Shown here: piece by piece, positions 30,785-45,928 of the stretch
How the letters are laid out: every line of letters begins with the position of its first letter
Position numbering within the stretch: position 1 is the first letter of the stretch
Origin: Terrimicrobiaceae bacterium
GTDB taxonomy: Bacteria > Verrucomicrobiota > Verrucomicrobiia > Chthoniobacterales > Terrimicrobiaceae
DNA length: 64,000 nt
Assembly: GCA_018402345.1 (NCBI GenBank)
Contig: JAGYIV010000008.1
Coordinates: 620,001-684,000, forward strand
Reading direction: 5' to 3'
Position numbers and translations under genes: made by a program
Notes under the pieces: model-generated
The model's database searches: none
Seen by the model: only the letters and a program-made list of their open reading frames with translations
What the model was told of the DNA's origin: nothing

Positions 30785-32100
30785 TTTATATCGGCCAAAT
30801 GTTCAGGCGAAAAAGGTTTTTTTGTAAAAATCTGGAGTTTCTTTTGGGTGAGGGTGGGAGTTGCAGAGCATGGACCATGCCACCCGCAGCACTCTTCCCG
30901 CCGGTGTCTTTGCCCCGAACAATCCACACGCCCTCGCGCCACCCCACTCGAGGATAAGGAATCAGCGCCTGCCGCCTGATGCTCTTCATGGTTCTCTCAC
31001 AGCGCCACAAAGCCCACAACGGTTCACACCTGAAATCGGATTTTTTGGACAGGATGGCAGGAGGGGAGATGGGCGACACTGAAAACTTAATCCTTAAAAC
31101 TGAAAACTCCTCTCCGCCAGCCCGCAGGGCGAGCAAGGCGAGTCAATTTACAGAATTAAGGGATTTTAGACAGAATTAACAGAATTTTAGACAGGAGGAC
31201 AGGAGGACAGGATTCGCAGGATTTACAGGAGGGAGGATGGGCGACACTGAAAACTTAATCCTTAAAACTGAAAACTCTTCTCCGCCAGCCCGTAGGGCGA
31301 GCAAGGCGAGTCAATTTACTGAATTAAGGTATTTTAGACAGAATTAACAGAATTAACAGAATTTATGGAATTTTAGACAGGATGACAGGATTGGCAGGAT
31401 TTTTAGGAGGGGAGATGGACGATACTTAAAACTTAATCCTTAAAACTGAAAACTCCTCTCCGCCAGCCCGTAGGGCGAGCAAGGCGAGTCAATTAACAGA
31501 ATTAACAGAATTTTAGACAGGATTGGCAGGATTTACAGGTTGTGGGCTTGGGCGACACTTAAAACTTAATTCTTAAAACTGAAAACTCCTCTCCAGCAGC
31601 CCGTAGGGCGAGCAAGGCGAGTCAATTTACTGAATTAAGGTATTTTAGACAGAATTAACAGAATTAACAGAATTTATGGAATTTTAGACAGGAGGACAGG
31701 ATTGGCAGGATTTTTAGGAGGGGAGATGGACGATACTTAAAACTTAATCCTTAAAACTGAAAACTCCTCTCCGCCAGCCCGTAGGGCGAGCAAGGCGAGT
31801 CAATCTACTGAATTAAGGGATTTTAGACAGAATTAACAGAATTAACAGAATTTTAGACAGGAGGACAGGAGGGCGGGGGATAGGCGATACTTAAAACTTA
31901 ATTCTTAAAACTGAAAACTCCTCTCCGGCCGCCCAGCAGGGCGAGCAAAGCGAGTCAATTCACAGAATTCAGAATTGCATGGAAAGGACATGCGGCCAGA
32001 AGCGAAGGGATTTTTCAGTGCTGACTGATGCTTTGTAACTCATTCTTATAATTCTGTTAATTCTGTTAATTCTGTCTAAACTCTTCTATCGCTGGATCCA
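30785..32100. repeat. Interspersed repeat array, family C (left block)
   Basis: About 1.3 kb without a credible gene. From 31070 on it consists of copies, 135-176 bp apart, of a unit with three parts: cttaatccttaaaactgaaa, then ctccgccagcccgtagggcg followed by agcaaggcgagtcaat, then strings of acagaattaacagaatttta and gacaggaggacaggattggc. At least six copies start near 31085, 31250, 31430, 31560, 31737 and 31895. The block ends with a different 120-bp element at 31975-32098 (gcatggaaaggacatgcggc) that recurs at 33552-33680. The first 280 bp (30785-31065) hold no recognisable gene or repeat. Confidence 0.85.
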
Positions 32101-32769: not shown

Positions 32770-33650
32770 TCTACAGAAGGGGGGGATTTTAGACAGAATC
32801 GGAGCGGAGCGGAGAAAGACTGCCAACGGCAGTCCGTAGGGCGAGCAAGGCGAGTCAATTTACAGAATTTACAGAATTTTTTAGACAGGATTGGCAGGAT
32901 TTACAGGTTGTGGGCTTGGGCGACACTTAAAACTTAATCCTTAAAACTGAAAACTCCTCTCCAGCAGCCCGTAGGGCGAGCAAGGCGAGTCAATTTACTG
33001 AATTAAGGTATTTTAGACAAAATTAACAGAATTAACAGAATTTATGGAATTTTAGACAGGATGACAGGATTGGCAGGATTTTTAGGAGGGGAGATGGGCG
33101 ACACTGAAAACTTAATCCTTAAAACTGAAAACTCCTCTCCGCCAGCCCGTAGGGCGAGCAAGGCGAGTCAATCTACTGAATTAAGGTATTTTTTGACAGA
33201 ATCGGAGCGGAGCGGAGAAAGACTGCCAACGGCAGCCCGTAGGGCGAGCAAGGCGAGTCAATTAACAGAATTAACAGAATTTTAGACAGGAGGACAGGAG
33301 GGCGGGGGATAGGCGATACTTAAAACTTAATTCTTAAAACTGAAAACTCCTCTCCGACTGCCCAGCAGGGCGAGCAAGGCGAGTCAATCTACTGAATTAA
33401 GGGATTTTAGACAGAATTAACAGAATTAACAGAATTTTAGACAGGAGGACAGGAGGGCGGGGGATAGGCGATACTTAAAACTTAATCCTTAAAACTGAAA
33501 ACTCCTCTCCGCCAGCCCGTAGGGCAAGCAAGGCGAGTCAATGAACAAAATAAACAGAATTGCATGGAAAGGACATGCGGCCAGAAGCGAAGGGATTTTT
33601 CAGTGCTGACTGATGCTTTGTAACTCATTCTGTTAATTCTGTTAATTCTG
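32770..33650. repeat. Interspersed repeat array, family C (right block)
   Basis: Copies of the same family C unit as at 30.8-32.1 kb (cttaatccttaaaactgaaa near 32933, 33110, 33325 and 33480), alternating with acagaattaacag strings and with a variant cggagcggagaaagactgcc at 32800-32825 and 33203-33228. It ends with the 120-bp element at 33552-33680, which is nearly identical to 31975-32098. No gene is seen. Confidence 0.85.
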
Positions 33651-33713
33651 TTAATTCTGTCTAAACTCTTCTATCGCTGAATCGACTTTGGAAATCAAAT
33701 CGCGCCTTTTCAT
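33651..33713 (-). pseudogene. hicA: HicA-type toxin remnant, cut by a repeat
   Basis: Directly after the HicB-like gene, with an ATGA overlap, an ATG opens MKRRDLISKV, the normal beginning of HicA toxins. After ten residues the sequence becomes DSAIEEFRQN and stops. That part is the end of the 120-bp repeat element, which is also present at 31975-32098. The toxin has therefore lost all but its first strand and helix region, including the catalytic histidine region. Confidence 0.65.
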
Positions 33714-37756: not shown

Positions 37757-38203
37757 TCACCCCAACGGATTCACCACCAGCAATCCAGCCATTCCGGCCA
37801 AGGCCGCCTGGCGCTGGTCGCGCGTCACCATTTCTTGCACATCGAGTTGCAGGGCGCTCGCCACATGGAGCGTGTCCAATGTCCGACATCCCGTGGTCGC
37901 GCCATGCGCCCGCGCAAGTCTCTCCGCCCGTTCCCACACCGCATCCCAATCCAAAGCCGTCGGCCGCAACACCCCCGCGTCCACATCCTCATCGAGAGCC
38001 GCCAACGCCGCCGTTGATTGCTCCAAACGGCATTCTCCACGAAACACTTTCAGCCGCAGCGCCGAGACACATTCCGAGCGGTGAAGCGATGTAAAAACCA
38101 ACGCCTCGCCGCCCCGCACCACCCAATCCCGCACTTCATCCGCCCCCTCCTCGACCGTATAAAGTTTGAGCAGGACGCCTGTGTCGTAATACCGCGTCAC
38201 CAC
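37757..38203 (-). CDS. vapC: VapC-like PIN-domain toxin
   Basis: A 148-residue PIN-domain ribonuclease. It starts YYDTGVLLKLYTVEEGADEV, with the first PIN aspartate in YDTG. It then has SLHRSECVSALRLKVF and TGCRTLDTLHVASALQLDVQ with the conserved acidic residue in LDTLHVA, and VTRDQRQAALA. It starts at a GTG at 38203 that overlaps the end of the Phd gene by seven bases. The PIN domain is complete. Confidence 0.82.
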   Translation of the reverse strand: MVTRYYDTGVLLKLYTVEEGADEVRDWVVRGGEALVFTSLHRSECVSALRLKVFRGECRLEQSTAALAALDEDVDAGVLRPTALDWDAVWERAERLARAHGATTGCRTLDTLHVASALQLDVQEMVTRDQRQAALAGMAGLLVVNPLG

Positions 38204-38436
38204 GCTCCCCGGCTTTCATCCAGCAGTTCGTCCGTTCCCGCACCTTGCCAAGCAACGCCCCAGATTTTTTGCGCCCGGTCCTTGAAATCCGGAAACACCG
38301 GATCCTCCTGTTTTATAGGAACAATCCGTGCCACCGGTCTGCGCCGACGAGTCACAACAAACTCCGAACCCGCTTCCACTTTCCGAACAAGCGCCGCTAA
38401 ATTATGCTGCGCCTCCATGATCGAGCAAGTTTTCAT
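38197..38436 (-). CDS. Phd/YefM-type antitoxin
   Basis: A 79-residue antitoxin for the VapC-like toxin just downstream. MEAQHNLAALVRKVEAGSEF followed by VVTRRRRPVARIVPIKQ is the Phd/YefM DNA-binding fold, and the C-terminal DKRAQ/WQGAGTDELLDES-like part is the toxin-binding tail. I chose the ATG at 38436; the open frame runs further up but into duplicated non-coding sequence. A second copy lies upstream at 38508-38768. Confidence 0.78.
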   Translation of the reverse strand: MKTCSIMEAQHNLAALVRKVEAGSEFVVTRRRRPVARIVPIKQEDPVFPDFKDRAQKIWGVAWQGAGTDELLDESRGAW

Positions 38437-38866
38437 AACGCATAAAAGTAACGCAGAAAAATACAGCGTCAAGCAGTCCTTGCCAAGCCGCACGCACCAA
38501 AAATATGTCAATATGTGGGACTGACCCCACAGCCCGCTCCCCGGCTTTCATCCAGCAGTTCGTCCGTTCCCGCACCTTGCCAAGCAACGCCCCAGATTTT
38601 TTGCGCCCGGTCCTTGAAATCCGGAAACACCGGATCCTCCTGTTTTATAGGAACAATCCGTGCCACCGGTCTGCGCCGACGAGTCACAACAAACTCCGAA
38701 CCCGCTTCCACTTTCCGAACAAGCGCCGCTAAATTATGCTGCGCCTCCATGATCGAGCAAGTTTTCATAACGCATAAAAGTAACGCAGAAAAATACAGCG
38801 TCAAGCAGTCCTTGCCAGGCCGCACGCACCAAAAATATGTCAATATGTGGGACTGACCCTACAGCC
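38203..38866. repeat. 332-bp tandem duplication covering the antitoxin gene and its leader
   Basis: Bases 38203-38534 and 38535-38866 are a direct tandem duplication with only about two differences (ccaagccg versus ccaggccg, gaccccac versus gaccctac). It includes the whole Phd-type coding region and the sequence upstream of it. Confidence 0.9.
38508..38768 (-). CDS. Second Phd/YefM-type antitoxin copy (orphan)
   Basis: Copy of the antitoxin gene created by the 332-bp tandem duplication. The first 76 or so residues are identical to the copy at 38197-38436. The C-terminus diverges at the duplication junction, ending GAGCGVSPTY instead of GAW, and no toxin gene follows directly. It could still make functional antitoxin, since the toxin-binding tail is kept. 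Confidence 0.7.
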   Translation of the reverse strand: MKTCSIMEAQHNLAALVRKVEAGSEFVVTRRRRPVARIVPIKQEDPVFPDFKDRAQKIWGVAWQGAGTDELLDESRGAGCGVSPTY

Positions 38867-39588: not shown

Positions 39589-40233
39589 CTAATTAAAAGT
39601 TGGTTTAGAAAATATAAAATTCGGAACTACAACTATATTTGATTTTTCAATATTCGAACCATCCAATAAGACCAAGGTATAATGCAGCGGTTCTTGAAAC
39701 TCGGCTTCAAAAACTGACCCATCTTCCACGCGAAAGGCAAAGTTTGATGAAACACTACCCATATCTTGGTATTTATATTTTTTTAATAAAACTGGGCCTT
39801 TTTTAGTTGTTATTGTAGTTGAATTTTTTGATCCAACATAAATTATACCAGCACTAAAGCCTGCATCATTTCGGACTTTATACTCGAGCGGCTCAATTTT
39901 AATAACCTCTTCTTGCGGTTCAGTTTGGTTGGTTGCAAGTAAAATTACTGCCAGATTTGATTTGTCTTTTTCAATCTTTAGAGGTTCCGACTCATCTTTG
40001 AGCCCCTCAATTTTCGCTGATATTCTGACTACACCTGCCGGAACAACCAAACCTCCGGTTATGGCACCATGTTGGAATGAAGGGTTCAACTCCGCGTCAT
40101 TGACGGATAGTGCCAAAGGCTTCCCTGTTCCATTTATAATATTCAGAAAACCAACATCTCCTTCAGCAATAGCTTTAATATTTAAAATAAAAAATGCGAT
40201 CAAAACGGGGGTTATTACGAAATTATTTTGCAT
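39589..40233 (-). CDS. Small secreted protein following Verru_Chthon A
   Basis: A 214-residue protein of unknown function. It begins MQNNFVITPVLIAFFILNIK and continues AIAEGDVGF, a plausible signal peptide cleaved after IAEG or nearby. The mature part has FLNIINGTGKPLALSVNDAE and GGLVVPAGVVRISAKIEGL, suggesting a small beta-sandwich, and no cysteines. Its start overlaps the end of the Verru_Chthon A gene by 11 bases, so it is the last gene of the cassette operon. Codon usage is more A/T-rich than in the housekeeping genes. Confidence 0.7.
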   Translation of the reverse strand: MQNNFVITPVLIAFFILNIKAIAEGDVGFLNIINGTGKPLALSVNDAELNPSFQHGAITGGLVVPAGVVRISAKIEGLKDESEPLKIEKDKSNLAVILLATNQTEPQEEVIKIEPLEYKVRNDAGFSAGIIYVGSKNSTTITTKKGPVLLKKYKYQDMGSVSSNFAFRVEDGSVFEAEFQEPLHYTLVLLDGSNIEKSNIVVVPNFIFSKPTFN

Positions 40234-42835
40234 ATATTATTTTGGGATTAATGGTTGCGGTGTTTCCATTTTGAGTAGGCTCTAAAAAGACATTGTAAAT
40301 CCGATCCACAGAAGAAATCACATCCCCATTTGCATCAAGCGCCTGCCCGCATACGAAAACCAGAAAGTTTCTGCTTCTTACAGTTACTAGCGGATAAATT
40401 TCTGAAAAGAGTTCTTCCCTTGAGCTGTCATTCCACATTGTGGGGCCCTCATTGGTGTTGCCGCTCCATTGGTTCGTATTGCCAAAGTAATAGCCGAGCG
40501 AGTTTGTGATATTCGACAACTGTGCGACCGACAAGTAGGGCCTACTCGCAATGACAGCCTCGGCAAACCTATTGCCTGCTTCCCCTCCAGATGACCTGGC
40601 TGCATAAATCGCGCGGTTGGTTGGTTGTAGGTTTTGGTTGGTCCGATATTGAATGCCAGCAACCAGAGCACGAAGTGCATCGGTGGTTGCCGTATTCAGA
40701 TTTATGGATGCTTGATTTGTTCTGTTTGCAGAAACAGTAAAAAGATCAAGAAGTTGGTAGGACCGATTCCCTGGCGTGTTGTAAACCGGGAACTCACCTT
40801 GGCCAATTCTTAAACTATATCCTCCACCTGATGCTGTGGATGCGGTAGGTGAAGTATTTGTAATGGAATTCCATTGCGAAGGATCGAAAATGTTTCCTAA
40901 TTCACAAATATTGGAGAAGCTTCCTGCATTGCTGATTCTTGCAGGAGCCAAGTTTGTAAGTGCAGTTGGTAGCGGGATACTGGTCGGCACAGTTCCGGGC
41001 CCGAAGCCCCGCCAAGTTCCTCGGCCATTCCGTGGAATAAACCATGGCCTCCCAGAAGTGCTAGGCGGGCTCTCGATGTCGGACTGCGGTCCATTAGGCC
41101 CACTCAAAGGCGATTCTGCAGTCACTGACGGAAAGTTGGGCCCATCATTACTAGGATCTGGCCAACGGGTAAAACGAACTTCCTTGAAGTTTGAATCTGA
41201 GATGCCAGACGAAAATTGCCGCCCTCCCCACGCAGTGTTGGCGTCATAATTACGAGGATAGACGGCCTGATTTATATAGAAAGAGCTCCTAGGATCACCT
41301 ACTTGGCCTATGCTGTAGTCCAAAGCCGTAGCGTTTGCTTTAAATCTTCTTTTTGAGTCGCCAGAAGGGAGAAAGCTACCCGTCTCACTTCCGGAGTTCT
41401 TCGCGCCCCCCCTGAATTCATCTACGAGCTGACCGTTCCAGTGAAAACGAAAAGTTGTATTGATATCTGCGGACATATTTTTCCACTGAAGTGGTGATGC
41501 CACTGCGGCGGAAGTTGAGAAGCTGTAGTTGGTGCTACCCACCTCTCTTACAAGGTAGCCGTTAGGTGGTATGCTGGGCAGGCTGGTAAAACCTGAGAAA
41601 GTTTCAGTAGTAAAATTTTGAGTAACCCCTACCAGAATAAAGCCATTTGAATCCTCATACTCAAAATTGCAATTTCCAGCTGCCGTTGCAACGCTACTTG
41701 GATTCCAAAAGTTTACAAATGTTCTTATTTGGATTTGAATTGGACTTCCAGCACCGCCTGCCCCGCTTGTCCAAGCATATCGGCGAGCAATAAGCGTTAC
41801 CAAAGGATATGAATCAAATCCCCTGTAATTAGGGCCGACAGTTGGATTATTATCTGTATCCGCATAATCAATAATATTGGCCGCAAGTGTCTCTGTATAA
41901 TTTCCTCGGTCGAATCCGCCACGACGCGAAGCATCAAAGTTCGGCAGGTTTCTGCTGATTATTCCCGCGATCGAAGAGACACTTGAAAGGTTGGTATTGA
42001 TATTAAATTTATTTGTCCCTTCATCGGCATATTGGAAGCCAACGGGAATAATTTCCGGCTCAACATATCTTCCGACTCGCGATGAAAGCGAGCCCAATAT
42101 GTTTGTAAAAGTCTGGTCGAGCAGAAGTGCGGATTGGGGAGTAAGGAATGCTTGACGGGATTGGATGATCTGGCGTGAAAAAACTTCACCTGGGTCAGTC
42201 TGCGAGAAATTATCGAAAATTGTGAAGAGCGCGATCGAGGATGGGGCATTGTTTGTTTCACGGGAATGGGTTCCATTTATAGAGTTTGTATTTCCTGCAA
42301 ATTGAAGGCTTACCCCTCCTTCAAGATCGCTGGCGGTGTAGCAGTATCGAATGGATCGAATCGGACCGCTTGTAGATATGTTTGTTTGTATCCAAGCTAC
42401 GATGGGTTGGCTTGCAAAAAGATAAGAGGGGACATCTGGTTTTCCTGAGGCAATGGTTAGATTTGAAGTTAATGATACGACGGGGTTTGAATAAATATTG
42501 TTTGAACTAACCTCACCTCCTGAAAAAAGAGGAGTGTAGACAACATTGGAACTGCTGCCGCCGAGTGGGTTACCAATGAAAAAGTATTCTGAGTTGTTGG
42601 TTGATACCTTAACCACATTGAATGTATAGTTTGTGGAAAGATTTGCAGCTTTCGAAATAAAAGCATTTAACCCCGCCTCAGCTGCGAGTTCCGCTTGGTA
42701 TTTATTCTGCATACTCCGGGAAATCTTCCGCTCCAGCGAGGAGCTTTCCATAAACGCCAGCACGATCGTGCTGAGAACGACCAAGACAAAAAGCGTGGTC
42801 AGCAGCGCGGAGGCTTTGTTGCGGTATTTGGTCAT
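40223..42835 (-). CDS. Verru_Chthon cassette protein A (GspK/PilX-like)
   Basis: An 870-residue protein with an N-terminal hydrophobic helix, ASALLTTLFVLVVLSTIVLA, followed by FMESSSLERKISRSMQNKYQ and AELAAEAGLNAF. This is the layout of PilX/GspK-type minor pseudopilins. The rest is a large, mostly beta extracellular region with NINTNLSS, WKNMSADINTTFRFHWNGQL and a C-terminal QASINLNTATTDALRALV (a GspK-like helix-hairpin-helix motif). Size and order relative to the B, C and D genes match the Verru_Chthon cassette. Precise function is unknown; assembly of or export by a type II secretion-like pseudopilus is inferred. Repeat sequence reaches to within a few bases of its ATG. Confidence 0.8.
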   Translation of the reverse strand: MTKYRNKASALLTTLFVLVVLSTIVLAFMESSSLERKISRSMQNKYQAELAAEAGLNAFISKAANLSTNYTFNVVKVSTNNSEYFFIGNPLGGSSSNVVYTPLFSGGEVSSNNIYSNPVVSLTSNLTIASGKPDVPSYLFASQPIVAWIQTNISTSGPIRSIRYCYTASDLEGGVSLQFAGNTNSINGTHSRETNNAPSSIALFTIFDNFSQTDPGEVFSRQIIQSRQAFLTPQSALLLDQTFTNILGSLSSRVGRYVEPEIIPVGFQYADEGTNKFNINTNLSSVSSIAGIISRNLPNFDASRRGGFDRGNYTETLAANIIDYADTDNNPTVGPNYRGFDSYPLVTLIARRYAWTSGAGGAGSPIQIQIRTFVNFWNPSSVATAAGNCNFEYEDSNGFILVGVTQNFTTETFSGFTSLPSIPPNGYLVREVGSTNYSFSTSAAVASPLQWKNMSADINTTFRFHWNGQLVDEFRGGAKNSGSETGSFLPSGDSKRRFKANATALDYSIGQVGDPRSSFYINQAVYPRNYDANTAWGGRQFSSGISDSNFKEVRFTRWPDPSNDGPNFPSVTAESPLSGPNGPQSDIESPPSTSGRPWFIPRNGRGTWRGFGPGTVPTSIPLPTALTNLAPARISNAGSFSNICELGNIFDPSQWNSITNTSPTASTASGGGYSLRIGQGEFPVYNTPGNRSYQLLDLFTVSANRTNQASINLNTATTDALRALVAGIQYRTNQNLQPTNRAIYAARSSGGEAGNRFAEAVIASRPYLSVAQLSNITNSLGYYFGNTNQWSGNTNEGPTMWNDSSREELFSEIYPLVTVRSRNFLVFVCGQALDANGDVISSVDRIYNVFLEPTQNGNTATINPKIIYAK

Positions 42836-43426
42836 GGGTTTTTGGGACAGAATGAACAGGATTAAGGGGTTTTAGACAGAATCGGAGCGGAGCGGAGAAA
42901 GACTGCCAACGGCAGCCCGTAGGGCGAGCAAGGCGAGTCAATTAACAGAATTAACAGAATTTTAGACAGGAGGACAGGATTGGCAGGATTTACAGGATAG
43001 GCAGGGTTGGGTTTTGACAGAATGAACAGAGTTAAGGGATTTTAGACAGAATGAACAGAATTAACAGAATTTTAGACAGGAGGACAGGATTGGCAGGATT
43101 TTTAGGATAGGCAGGTTGCGGACTTGGGTGATACTTAAAACTTAATACTTAAAACTGAAAACTCCTCTCCGGCAGCCCGTAGGGCGAGCAAGGCGAGTCA
43201 ATTAACAGAATTAACAGAATTTATGGAATTTTAGACAGGAGGGCAGGATTGGGTGGTGGGATTTTTTGGGCTTGGGTTCGGGATTTTGCGCGGCCATCGG
43301 AAAGGCAACCGTATTTGCGTATATTAATGAATATCATTTTTTAATTCTGTTAATTCTGTCAATTATGTCTAAAAAACTCTTATTTTTTCCTGTTCCTCCT
43401 GGAAATCCTGTCATCCTGTCAATTCC
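42836..43426. repeat. Family C repeats between cassette genes C and A
   Basis: Bases 42845-43250 are made of acagaattaacagaatttta, gacaggaggacaggattggc and one full cttaatacttaaaactgaaa unit. The remainder (43260-43426) has attctgttaattctgtcaat and cctgtcatcctgtcaattcc, the same motifs in inverted orientation. No gene is seen. The array separates two genes that would normally be adjacent in the cassette. Confidence 0.8.
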
Positions 43427-44188
43427 CTATGGAGTGGGGAGCGGGATGCGGGTGGTGAAGGTTTTGGTGTGTTTACGATAGTCGGCGAGGTCAATATCGT
43501 TGTCAGGCTGGGAAAAGTCGACCCACTCGGCGGACGCGTTCCGCGGGCTGAACCGCATGGTGCGCTCGTTGTTCACAGCGGTGATCCGGATTTCCACGAG
43601 GTCGGGCATGGGGGAAGCCACGCTCTGCGTCCAAGTGGTAAAATCGCCCGCGTTATTTGTCGTGAAATAGTTGACTTTAAAGCTGGCAATGTTGCGCGCG
43701 AGGATTTCTGAACGGTTTGTGGAGGGATCGAAGTCGGGGAAGAGATCGGAGCCTTGGGACAGATTGGTGAAGGTGTCGTTGCTCTCCACAAAGTAGCGGT
43801 AGAGATTGTAACTTTGGCGTCCATCGTCGGCGGCGACGGGGCTTTTGTTGTCGTAGGCGAAGAGGTATCCGACCGTGCAGACGTCGCCGAGGCTGGTGTC
43901 GAGCTGGGAATCTCGAGGCATGAGGGCAAGGAAAGCCAACTGGTTGGTGGAAAAAATGAAATGGGTGGTGTTTGTAGAGGGCAGGAGATTGTTTAAATCG
44001 CGAGAGATCACCTGCATGGCGGCGCGGGCCTCGCGGTAGGTCTCCATGCGGTTCTCGGAGTTCCTCCAGAGGGTGGCAGCGCTTTGGACGATATTCAGCA
44101 GCAGGACCAGCAGCATCCCGAGCACCGCCACAGCCACAAGGATTTCCAATATGGTGAAGGCAGCTGTTTTTTTGGACAGGATGGACAA
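43427..44188 (-). CDS. Verru_Chthon cassette protein C (pseudopilin-like)
   Basis: A 253-residue pseudopilin-like protein. AFTILEILVAVAVLGMLLVL is a type IV prepilin-like N-terminal helix with Glu at position 5 after the expected cleavage site, then LRNSENRMETYREARAAMQV and the RDLNNLLP motif of minor pseudopilins (GspJ-like). The globular part follows to TFTTRIPLPTP. The first residues (MSILSKK from a TTG at 44188) are encoded by the edge of a family C repeat, so the natural start may have been altered. No prepilin peptidase gene is in the window. Confidence 0.75.
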   Translation of the reverse strand: MSILSKKTAAFTILEILVAVAVLGMLLVLLLNIVQSAATLWRNSENRMETYREARAAMQVISRDLNNLLPSTNTTHFIFSTNQLAFLALMPRDSQLDTSLGDVCTVGYLFAYDNKSPVAADDGRQSYNLYRYFVESNDTFTNLSQGSDLFPDFDPSTNRSEILARNIASFKVNYFTTNNAGDFTTWTQSVASPMPDLVEIRITAVNNERTMRFSPRNASAEWVDFSQPDNDIDLADYRKHTKTFTTRIPLPTP

Positions 44189-44233
44189 AATTTCTCTGGG
44201 TTAAGAGTTACTTGGACAGAATTAACAGAATTT

Positions 44234-44638
44234 TCAAAATTTAAAACTGTGGGGATGGCTGTGCTGTAATTGCTTTCGGAATTTCTTTTTGAATTGAAGG
44301 CTGTCCGCTCCAAAATTGATAAGAACCCCTTCCTCAATGCCAGTTGCAGTGAGATAATTGACCAGCTGCACTTCATGGATTTGAAGAATGCTTTGGACAG
44401 ATTTCAACTCAACGATCAGCAAATTCTCGACAACAATGTCAGCGACAAAATCACCAACACATTGTTCTTTATAATTCACCCTCATTTCTTTTTGAAACTC
44501 AAACCCAAGATTTGAGGCTCCCAACTCTATACCCAGCGCATTCTCATAAACAGACTCGACAAAGCCAGGCCCCAAAGACCGGTGAACCTCCATAGCCATA
44601 CCAATCACTCTCCCAGCCAAATCATATTCCTTTTCCAT
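44234..44638 (-). CDS. GxxExxY-family protein
   Basis: A 134-residue protein of the GxxExxY family: MAMEVHRSLGPGFVESVYEN, then ALGIEL, FVADIVVENLLIVELKSV and QLVNYLTATGIEEGVLINFG. The D(x)n ExK pattern (DIVVENLLIVELKSV) is that of PD-(D/E)XK nuclease-like folds, but no function has been shown to my knowledge. It sits between cassette genes C and B and is bounded by family C repeat sequence on both sides, as if carried in as a passenger. Confidence 0.8.
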   Translation of the reverse strand: MEKEYDLAGRVIGMAMEVHRSLGPGFVESVYENALGIELGASNLGFEFQKEMRVNYKEQCVGDFVADIVVENLLIVELKSVQSILQIHEVQLVNYLTATGIEEGVLINFGADSLQFKKKFRKQLQHSHPHSFKF

Positions 44639-44706
44639 AAGTTTATTATATTCTGTTAATTCTGTTAATTCTGTCTAAAACCCAATCAGAAATCCTGTCA
44701 TCCTGT

Positions 44707-45201
44707 CTAAAACCCAATCAGTGTCACAAACGAGTTTGTTGTGCGGCGGGCTGCTGGGGCGGCGGCGGGGTAGGCGATATCGACTTGCACGCGGGAGAGG
44801 TTGGTGAAGTCGGTGTTAGTGATGGAGATCTGGGCGTAGTAGTCGTAGGCGGCGTTGACAGGCGCGTTTGTCGAGAGAAACAGCGCTTGCGGCAGGCCGT
44901 CTTCTGAGAAGGCTAAGTTATTCGTGCTGGTTGCGGCGAGGTTGAGATTTGTCGTTCCGTTTGCTGAGATGAAGAGAGTGCGGTTCCCTCCAGTTCCTGT
45001 CTTGAGCTCTGCAAAAACCCTGCGGGCGATCAGGGTGGCATCCGTCTCCCGCATGCTGTCACCGGCCGACTTCACGGCGACGGGCATGAGACCCATGATT
45101 CCCACAATGGCAAAGGCAATAATCCCAAGCGCCAGCACGACCTCAACAAGGCTGAAGGCGCTTTGGCAGGGCTGGACGCTCGTGTGGACCATGGTCTTCA
45201 A
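44707..45201 (-). CDS. Verru_Chthon cassette protein B (pseudopilin-like)
   Basis: A 164-residue pseudopilin-like protein with AFSLVEVVLALGIIAFAIVG as prepilin-type helix (Glu at +5) and IMGLMPVAVKSAGDSMRETD directly after it, as in GspI/PilV-like minor pseudopilins. The rest is a small beta-rich domain ending TTNSFVTLIGF. The first possible start is a TTG at 45201 overlapping the stop of protein D (TTGA); an ATG at 45192 is the alternative. Second gene of the cassette in transcription order. Confidence 0.77.
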   Translation of the reverse strand: MKTMVHTSVQPCQSAFSLVEVVLALGIIAFAIVGIMGLMPVAVKSAGDSMRETDATLIARRVFAELKTGTGGNRTLFISANGTTNLNLAATSTNNLAFSEDGLPQALFLSTNAPVNAAYDYYAQISITNTDFTNLSRVQVDIAYPAAAPAARRTTNSFVTLIGF

Positions 45202-45563
45202 TCAGGAACTGGAGGAATCGGGACGAGATCCATGGTCGCCCGACCGGTGTAGCGTGCAAGGGAAATGACTTCGCGGAGATCGCCTTTTTGTTTTTTCACA
45301 GTCAGCGAATCGCTCCCGCTGGTGCGTTGGCCTTCGGTAAGGGAAACGATAAGTTGTGAGGCGGTGGGGGATTTCACAGATCCTGTGGAGGAGAACCGAA
45401 CCCAGCGGAGATGGGGAGTCACTGTGGCCAGATTGTTCACGCCCGGGAGGGTGTTGTTGTTCACATCAGGTAATGATGAAAAGAGTTCGGTATTTGTAAA
45501 AATCGCCGAGTGCGGGGTCCGTCTCCTTCGAAAAACAGCACGCCCTTCGGCAGCTTGCTCCAC
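45198..45563 (-). CDS. Verru_Chthon cassette protein D, C-terminal part (after frameshift)
   Basis: C-terminal part of protein D in a shifted frame. The genuine sequence starts at TPHSAIFTNTELFSSLPDVN (about 45520) and goes on with RWVRFSSTGSVKSP and QRTSGSDSLTVKKQKGDLRE, ending VPIPPVPD at the start of gene B. This is a GspH-like C-terminal pseudopilin domain. The listed ATG at 45563 lies in the wrong frame for the preceding part and is not believed. Joining with 45461-45928 by one base near 45520 gives 243 residues. Confidence 0.7.
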   Translation of the reverse strand: MEQAAEGRAVFRRRRTPHSAIFTNTELFSSLPDVNNNTLPGVNNLATVTPHLRWVRFSSTGSVKSPTASQLIVSLTEGQRTSGSDSLTVKKQKGDLREVISLARYTGRATMDLVPIPPVPD

Positions 45564-45928
45564 CGCGAGACCGGCTCCCAGTCGTTGTCATCAGCATTCC
45601 GCTGGAGCACAATCATGGCGTCCTGCTCATCGAACTGTGTGGTGGTGCCGTTTTTTTTCCAGAAAACCACAACCACATCGCGTCCTTTCTGGATGGAGGC
45701 GACCCGCGCTTGCTCCAGCGTGTTCATCACGATGGTGACGGCTCCTTTTCGCCCGGCCGGAGAGGCCAAGCCCTCGACCACCGGCCCCATGAACGACAAC
45801 AGGAGCCCGATGATCGCGACGACGACAAGAACCTCGATCAGCGAAAATCCCCGCGCGCCCCGCTGCCTGCTGGTGCTTCTTCCCCAGGCAGGTCCGCCAA
45901 ATTGATCAAAACGCTCCAGTGTTTTCAT
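45461..45928 (-). CDS. Verru_Chthon cassette protein D, N-terminal part
   Basis: First gene of the cassette. The type IV prepilin-like signal is RGFSLIEVLVVVAIIGLLLS with Glu at +5 after the Gly/Phe cleavage site, then VVEGLASPAGRKGAVTIVMN and TLEQARVASIQKGRDVVVVF (GspH-like). After LPKGVLFFEGDG the frame is lost by a single missing base near 45520, and the last 18 or so residues are artefact. The 200 bp upstream (45929-46130) would hold the cassette promoter, and I see no clear -35/-10 pair there. Confidence 0.75.
   Translation of the reverse strand: MKTLERFDQFGGPAWGRSTSRQRGARGFSLIEVLVVVAIIGLLLSFMGPVVEGLASPAGRKGAVTIVMNTLEQARVASIQKGRDVVVVFWKKNGTTTQFDEQDAMIVLQRNADDNDWEPVSRWSKLPKGVLFFEGDGPRTRRFLQIPNSFHHYLM

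Follow-up and report, generated by a model that had tools for sequence, protein, structure and literature searches.

Proteins annotated as GxxExxY are common in bacteria, yet a search of the open-licence literature found no role described for them, and their families (TIGR04256, PF13366, PDDEXK_3) were mentioned there incidentally at most. We analysed a stretch of 64,000 nucleotides (nt) from a Terrimicrobiaceae bacterium of the phylum Verrucomicrobiota (assembly GCA_018402345.1, contig JAGYIV010000008.1, positions 620,001 to 684,000), hereafter the window, in which one such gene stands amid a cassette of pseudopilin-like genes. On the minus strand the order is D, B, GxxExxY, C, A and an open reading frame (ORF) for a secreted-looking protein of 214 amino acids (aa). 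An earlier annotation of the window, the sequence-only reading, took this cassette to be interrupted by the GxxExxY gene and by repeats. The locus raises the question of what a nuclease gene does between two pseudopilin genes, and whether the repeats around it belong to the gene, to the cassette or to neither.

Comparison with other loci gives good support to an anatomy in which inverted repeat arrays (arms) to the left and right of the GxxExxY gene form a bounded unit with it, the core of the repeats is matched to the protein, and the unit is placed within operons. This repeat-bracketed nuclease unit is widespread and apparently undescribed; no mention of the arm repeat units was found in the open-licence literature. 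Our favoured reading is that the gene is part not of the pseudopilus cassette but of a unit that occurs generally, and we consider it fairly probable that this unit is a discrete element that moves seldom and encodes a PD-(D/E)XK nuclease able to recognise the element's own repeats in DNA.

Inverted arms around GxxExxY genes

The sample comprised 155 GxxExxY loci, namely six from the genome of the window (the own genome), 69 from other Verrucomicrobiota and 80 named loci. The 69 loci (29 and 40) were drawn, top scores first and hence non-randomly, from matches in 46 of 96 Verrucomicrobiota genomes, and the named loci are the best 80 of 578 matches in one scan of genome contigs. The arm score is an inverted local alignment of the 300 nt to the left of the gene with the 300 nt to its right, and was obtained for the 147 loci (14 named phyla) with at least 150 nt on either side. 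A score of at least 30 was reached in 117 of the 147 loci and in 74 of 1470 mispaired flanks; for a score of at least 40 the counts were 90 of 147 and 10 of 1470, and the medians were 42 for true and 18 for mispaired flanks. Control windows within the same loci reached 30 in 4 of 480 cases and 40 in none of 480. ORF6N, another scattered small gene, was considered as a further bracketed family and rejected, none of the 18 loci taken from its 27 matches scoring 26 or more, though an ORF6N gene adjoins GxxExxY in one relative's locus (L057).

Each arm consists of a 7-nt core, in most cases CRCNNAR, repeated every 8-11 nt. Their core forms are CRCNNA(R/T) or ACAGRAT, the former being partly built in because the label search asked for that form. 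The polarity of the cores is reversed between the two sides: exact tandem core pairs in the left 120 nt lie on the gene strand in 66 and on the other strand in 16 of the 155 loci, and on the right side in 16 and 65, respectively. All six GxxExxY genes of the own genome are bracketed, each by arms of a different unit (CACGGAG, CACAGAT, ACAGAAT, ACAGGAT, CACGAAT and CGCAGAG), and one of the six (L004) has an internal stop codon.

Correspondence of arm core and protein

A core shared by both arms could be assigned in 118 of the 155 loci, and the 116 that fall in seven classes were placed on a tree of the proteins. The classes require 29 changes on this tree against a mean of 61.1 when labels are shuffled, with none of 200 shuffles as low. 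The signal persisted when shuffling was confined to genomes for 63 Verrucomicrobiota loci (19 changes against 31.8, minimum 23, 0 of 200 as low) and to phyla for the 53 labelled named loci (13 against 20.9, minimum 16, 0 of 200 as low), and when a single locus was kept per shared-flank group (87 rows, 20 draws; 23-26 changes against 47.9, minimum 41 of 500). Because these restricted shuffles keep the signal, the link between core and protein does not come from host relatedness or inherited junctions alone. The simplest reason for the match would be that the protein reads its own units.

Placement between the genes of operons

Neighbours that have a homologue beside another locus lie on the strand of the GxxExxY gene in 50 of 53 cases on the left and 38 of 40 on the right, one locus being counted twice in this table (L072/L151). 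The same holds for 12 of 12 neighbours in six annotated records, where arms are clear in L367, L369 and L440 and not clear in L368, L441 and L442. Such same-strand placement in operons would imply co-transcription with the neighbours. The junctions identified with profiles are gatA/gatB, trpE/trpG, carA/carB, pheA/aminotransferase, cas4/cas1, phosphoglycerate-mutase-type gene/aspartate kinase and pyruvate dehydrogenase E1 beta/E2. Independent insertion at gatA-gatB and trpE-trpG was considered and several origins were not shown, although the starred branches need at least two for trpEG; no hot spots are claimed, because trees with a single clade for each of the two junctions are not rejected.

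Distribution of the gene is patchy: of 96 Verrucomicrobiota genomes 46 have a match, and a single genome has up to 12. Eight of 72,556 plasmid records match a GxxExxY query (L133), and none of 50,697 phage records matches that of the window.

As a side observation, recurrent junctions often involve glutamine amidotransferase enzymes (gatAB, trpEG, carAB, guaA, purL, nadE; guaA and nadE identified by eye) in an uncontrolled tally that is inflated by descent.

The unit at the B-C junction

The presence of a GxxExxY gene in the B-C gap, reported by the sequence-only reading, is borne out by scores far above the cut-offs of two family profiles (Table 1). The repeats that adjoin this gene on either side are its inverted arms, a pairing that in comparable loci greatly exceeds chance. 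Its further statement that the B-C and C-A gaps are filled by this gene and by family C repeats holds as to position, the B-C gap containing the gene and the C-A gap gene-less repeats, and fails as to composition, the repeats not being of a single family. They are a mixture of 9-nt ACAGAATTA/ACAGGATTT units, an array of the 7-nt ACTTAAA type (43133-43163) and a palindromic module (42870-42961) that is dispersed in the genus, a 593-nt query matching 15 of the 16 genomes searched with 82 matches in the own genome.

Describing the cassette as interrupted is misleading. In nine relatives' loci the sequence extends far enough beyond the start of C to judge this; five of them (L052, L054, L055, L056 and L057) have a GxxExxY gene at or beside the B-C junction and four (L053, L061, L064 and L065) have none; in L057 an ORF6N gene and further repeats also lie between B and GxxExxY. 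The frame from GxxExxY into C is open without a stop in L052, L055, L056 and L057, two of these being cut by contig ends. If C has no start of its own in these fused loci, the nuclease would be an outsized leader that prepilin peptidase has to cleave off. The unit also enters its neighbours where there is no fusion: the TAG stop of B falls within TTTTAGACAG, the outer end of one arm, both in the window and in L054, and the opening residues of C (MSILSKKTAAF in the window, LKILLILSKKSSAF in L054) are encoded in frame by the other arm. Comparison of the window with L054 at this same junction gave a nonsynonymous rate (dN) of 0.19 and a synonymous rate (dS) of 1.56, the latter near saturation, for GxxExxY, and its dN is below that of B (0.30) and C (0.32). 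The gene at the window site is under purifying selection.

The shared GxxExxY-C frames span 1492-2646 in L055, 2209-3360 in L057, 11423-12445 in L056 and 2-880 in L052. In L061, both B and C have repeats of the 'CAPGAKQSTLPPCQALSRGF' type reaching into their 5' ends, and the start of C reads 'INSVNSVQK', a trace of 9-nt units without GxxExxY.

The GxxExxY protein

The 40 aligned proteins keep G25, E28, Y31, D67, E77, K79, Y95, N108 and F109, with H88 and Q91 nearly always present. The invariant D67, E77 and K79, together with a structure model that resembles PD-(D/E)XK enzymes (confidence score, pLDDT, 91), place the protein in that superfamily, and these residues indicate a predicted active site that is intact. 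Among the structural matches listed, the model resembles SSO0001 (4ic1) with a Foldseek E of 6e-5 and a VIA-align Z of 9.7 (root-mean-square deviation 5.8 over 107 residues). By sequence, Cas4 models match weakly (E 0.003-0.06) and a search of solved structures gave nothing useful (best E 0.25). A fold like that of Cas4 and lambda exonuclease would fit putative work at DNA ends or on branched DNA.

Edges and possible movement

Element-free relatives offer a view of the edges of the unit. In Sphingomonas parapaucimobilis, where the unit separates fabD from fabG, the two genes are 464 nt apart; the gap without the unit is 30 nt in Rhizobium indigoferae and about 32 nt in S. paeninsulae (fabG by eye). 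A purL site in the own genus reads gnd-[unit]-purL in G000 and gatA-[unit]-purL in G020 and G016, while G014 has a trpC-like gene before purL and no unit (gene names by eye). The outer end of the right arm is the exact point where homology between G014 and G000 sets in, and the homology of G016 stops within the left arm. As the unit before purL (L370) is flanked by gnd or by gatA depending on the species, it also marks points of rearrangement. In the genus of G076 (40 genomes) the flanks lie apart in the relatives listed, and the comparison is uninformative. The pair L006/L054 was considered as an empty site and rejected, the loss of the unit in it being an imprecise deletion. Movement is inferred from the patchy occurrence and the empty sites; the 80 within-genome GxxExxY pairs have a median identity of 42%, with two pairs at 70% or more.

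A proposed discrete element and its alternatives

In the mechanism that we propose, the GxxExxY gene and the inverted arms on both sides constitute one discrete genetic element, each arm being a brief run of 7-nt cores set apart by spacers of 1-4 nt and both arms having the same core, matched to the protein. The PD-(D/E)XK protein would bind its cognate units in DNA and cut or process ends, and this end processing would allow the unit to enter a short intercistronic gap. There it would be transcribed by the host operon, supplying the stop codon of the preceding gene and the start or leader codons of the next, and would then be inherited mainly vertically, moving rarely.

Several observations weigh against this proposal. 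Arm scores are below 30 in 30 of the 147 loci, a direct, non-inverted comparison also reaches 40 in 28 of 147, 50 of 155 mispaired loci likewise receive a shared core in the labelling, and the protein tree is thin, with 116 columns of the matched protein region for 155 rows. Inverted arms also bracket genes of the four-helix-bundle IVP family in Verrucomicrobiota (19 of 29 loci at 30 or more, 8 at 40 or more), so that bracketing is not special to nucleases; the IVP arms (L220-L249) are built from another class of units of about 7 nt (AGTTTTC, AGTGGCT, GTTGAAA, TTAGGCT). Movement itself was not seen, none of the 80 within-genome pairs being at least 90% identical, and a target-site duplication could not be defined, the filled and empty fabD-fabG sites being too diverged. 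Besides G014/G019, the comparison of L054 with L006 provides the sole element-free allele for an element of the own genome, and there both neighbours are damaged. Some junctions are kept across genera, which fits vertical descent, and a single clade is not rejected for the gatAB loci (approximately unbiased test, p 0.76) nor for those of trpEG (p 0.20).

Alternatively, the gene could be a resident with a host function such as repair or regulation, its arms being regulatory or boundary sites and nothing moving; purifying selection, the identical junction across genera, rarity on plasmids, absence from the phage records and the lack of recent copies all accord with this. We consider it rather unlikely, in view of the patchy distribution, the unrelated junctions, the element-free relatives, and genomes with up to a dozen matches whose cores differ. 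The unit could also be an RNA-level intervening element: pairing of the arms within the operon mRNA would lead to their processing, as happens through RNase III with the intervening sequence (IVS) of 23S rRNA, and the gene would on that account be tolerated between cistrons. One account portrays the IVS as a single small ORF bounded by inverted repeats at its ends, which RNase III cuts out (PMC4990558). The bracketed IVP genes and the co-transcription suggested by operon placement are in line with such an element. Against it, the arms lie about 400 nt apart and their mismatches in 129 loci show no preference for pairing, 138 being of the G.U and 151 of the A.C kind (p = 0.48); with no G.U excess, selection seems to act on DNA sequence and not on RNA pairing. 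A hairpin of the arms was rejected on these counts, and the RNA explanation as a whole appears unlikely.

Two further possibilities were weighed. As in REPIN/RAYT systems, a single-copy gene might keep up a large scattered set of gene-less repeats that match its own type; the pairing of one protein with one unit type and the gene-less arrays of the window (Table 1) speak for this. The frequency of the repeats makes it very improbable: exact tandem pairs of the same core are rare elsewhere, a 400-kb portion of the own genome having 8 (reversed control 5) and 320 kb of G106 having 5 (control 3), and a dispersed REP-type system found no support in these sequences or in 200 kb each of G103 and G046, two genomes without a GxxExxY match. 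That GxxExxY is a functional part of the pseudopilus cassette could be argued from its recurrence at or near the B-C junction and its four in-frame fusions to C. The family is found in many unrelated operons, however, and it is missing from cassettes of the genera g3, g4 (one locus) and g5; we give this idea hardly any credence.

Taking the discrete DNA element as our preferred reading, we advance tentatively, as possible rather than probable, a wider proposal. Here the unit would represent an undescribed class of elements in operon gaps, present in at least 14 phyla, in which a small gene lies between inverted unit arrays and the unit serves as a protein-specific address. GxxExxY with its 9-10-nt units (7-nt core) and IVP with units of about 7 nt would both be members, the 23S rRNA IVS would be the rRNA branch, and the variable core positions would amount to a protein-DNA code. 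In this genus the unit would have become part of pseudopilin reading frames, even fused to C.

Relation to known systems

Single-copy genes with their own type of inverted repeat are characteristic of REPIN/RAYT systems, a pairing that the GxxExxY unit shares; it differs in having a PD-(D/E)XK protein in place of an HUH/Y1 tyrosine transposase and in that no excess of dispersed cognate repeats was found in the sequences counted. Insertion sequences and miniature inverted-repeat transposable elements are alike in their terminal inverted repeats around one gene and in having gene-less versions, as seen in the window. Unlike insertion sequences, the unit has no recognised transposase, TIGR04256 and PF13366 being the only profiles over cut-off within it, lacks near-identical copies within genomes, and has arms that are arrays of units with a variable core. 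Cas4 and lambda-exonuclease-type enzymes share the fold and catalytic residues of the GxxExxY model, whereas GxxExxY is small, stand-alone and tied to a repeat pair. The 23S rRNA IVS, with its S23p/IVP ORF, likewise places a small ORF between terminal inverted repeats within a longer transcript, and its origin and function are called unclear in the account cited above (PMC4990558). In contrast, the GxxExxY unit sits between protein genes, encodes a PD-(D/E)XK nuclease and not S23p, and has arms of tandem 9-10-nt units with no sign of RNA pairing.

If the repeat pair is read by GxxExxY, as is probable, it provides a testable substrate for this protein, and the many natural pairs of protein and core offer a ready set for learning a DNA-recognition code. 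The unit would also explain a class of odd intergenic repeats, point to a pervasive guest inside the operons of central enzymes, and may help to understand how 23S rRNA intervening sequences arose. Annotators should bear in mind that a neighbouring gene may owe its start or stop codon to the guest unit.

The pseudopilin cassette of the window

The set of D, B, C, A and a small secreted gene named by the sequence-only reading is present, all on the minus strand (Table 1). Its description as a type II secretion- or pseudopilus-like Verru_Chthon cassette is upheld by adjacent D, B, C and A genes with prepilin N-termini in an order identical to that in relatives (17 relatives' cassette regions and 3 of the own genome, in a survey of 26 genomes of the Terrimicrobiaceae family), and is qualified by the profile search, in which all four proteins fall under the NCBIfam cut-offs with mostly N-terminal stretches recognised. 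The cassette is a divergent Verru_Chthon set that resembles the named families (TIGR02596, TIGR02598-TIGR02600) in order and N-termini, and differs from them in score and in the small protein after A, which is outside the four families. An A homologue occurs in 18 of the 26 genomes, the own included, and five matches to PF00437 (type II/IV ATPases) were counted in the own genome. No papers on Verru_Chthon or its TIGR026xx families were found in the open-licence literature. The five proteins are probably a minor-pseudopilin set that uses the type II secretion or type IV pilus machinery of the cell.

Relatives' D proteins have 218-241 aa, of which residues 1-136 match one frame of the window and the remainder another, placing a frameshift near residue 136 that is either real or an assembly error. 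The proposed overlap of D and B (stop 45198-45200, B start 45201) accordingly exists in the second frame of D and not in the first.

Table 1. Features of the window, with positions in nt of the 64,000-nt stretch
Feature	Position	Strand	Remarks
Cassette protein D, 5' part (prepilin N-terminus)	45461-45928	-	TIGR02596 32.1 bits (cut-off 70); 60% identity to relatives' D
Cassette protein D, 3' part, other frame	45198-45563	-	matches residues ~120-240 of relatives' D
Cassette protein B	44707-45201	-	TIGR02598 30.6 bits (cut-off 51.4); TAG stop 44707-44709 within inverted arm
Upstream inverted arm of GxxExxY unit	44646-44715		ATTCTGTTA / ATCCTGTC units, outer end CTGTCTAAAA
GxxExxY PD-(D/E)XK nuclease gene	44234-44638	-	TIGR04256 136.5 bits (cut-off 35), PF13366 131.1 bits (cut-off 22); model pLDDT 91
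Downstream inverted arm	44170-44244		ACAGAATTAACAGAATT and ACAGGAT units; C has its leader codons and presumed TTG start (44186-44188) here
Cassette protein C	43427-44188	-	TIGR02599 47.4 bits (cut-off 256.5) across 58 N-terminal residues
Gene-less repeat array, C-A gap	42847-43420		unit type as in the GxxExxY arms; + units at left, - units at right end
Cassette protein A, 870 aa	40223-42835	-	TIGR02600 28.9 bits (cut-off 332.3)
Small secreted protein, 214 aa	39589-40233	-	probable divergent member of post-A family; 11-nt overlap with A
Gene-less ACAGAAT-unit arrays	31150-32075, 32862-33660	+ units inside, - at right end	ACTTAAA-type 7-nt repeats between

The overlap of A with the small gene, whose product may be a substrate or a fifth subunit of the set, was confirmed. 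Whether such a gene regularly follows A was judged in the 14 relatives' loci with more than 700 nt beyond the stop of A, and since 12 of them (L052, L053, L055-L064; not L065 and L066) have a same-strand ORF with a signal-peptide-like start (assessed by eye) that overlaps A or lies a few nt away, a small secreted gene does so. This part of the earlier suggestion stood, and homologues of the small protein thus appear to be present beside other cassettes, while the homology of the window's own protein to these is weak, with statistics that agree in direction. It had no match at E 0.01 in the 25 other genomes of the family. A profile of the relatives' post-A proteins ranks it first of 2782 ORFs, but at E = 1.8; in the reverse search its best non-self matches are the post-A proteins of L052 (E 0.044) and L057 (E 0.16), and all decoys rank below them. 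Its structure model is unusable (pLDDT 27.5), and a sequence search of solved structures gave nothing useful for it. Several relatives' post-A proteins have 'VQFINATSVP..L.L' in common, and the window protein carries 'LNIINGTGKPLALSVND'.

Elsewhere in the window, two near-identical tandem ORFs that look antitoxin-like by eye (38197-38511 and 38508-38843) adjoin one that looks PIN-like by eye (37757-38203).

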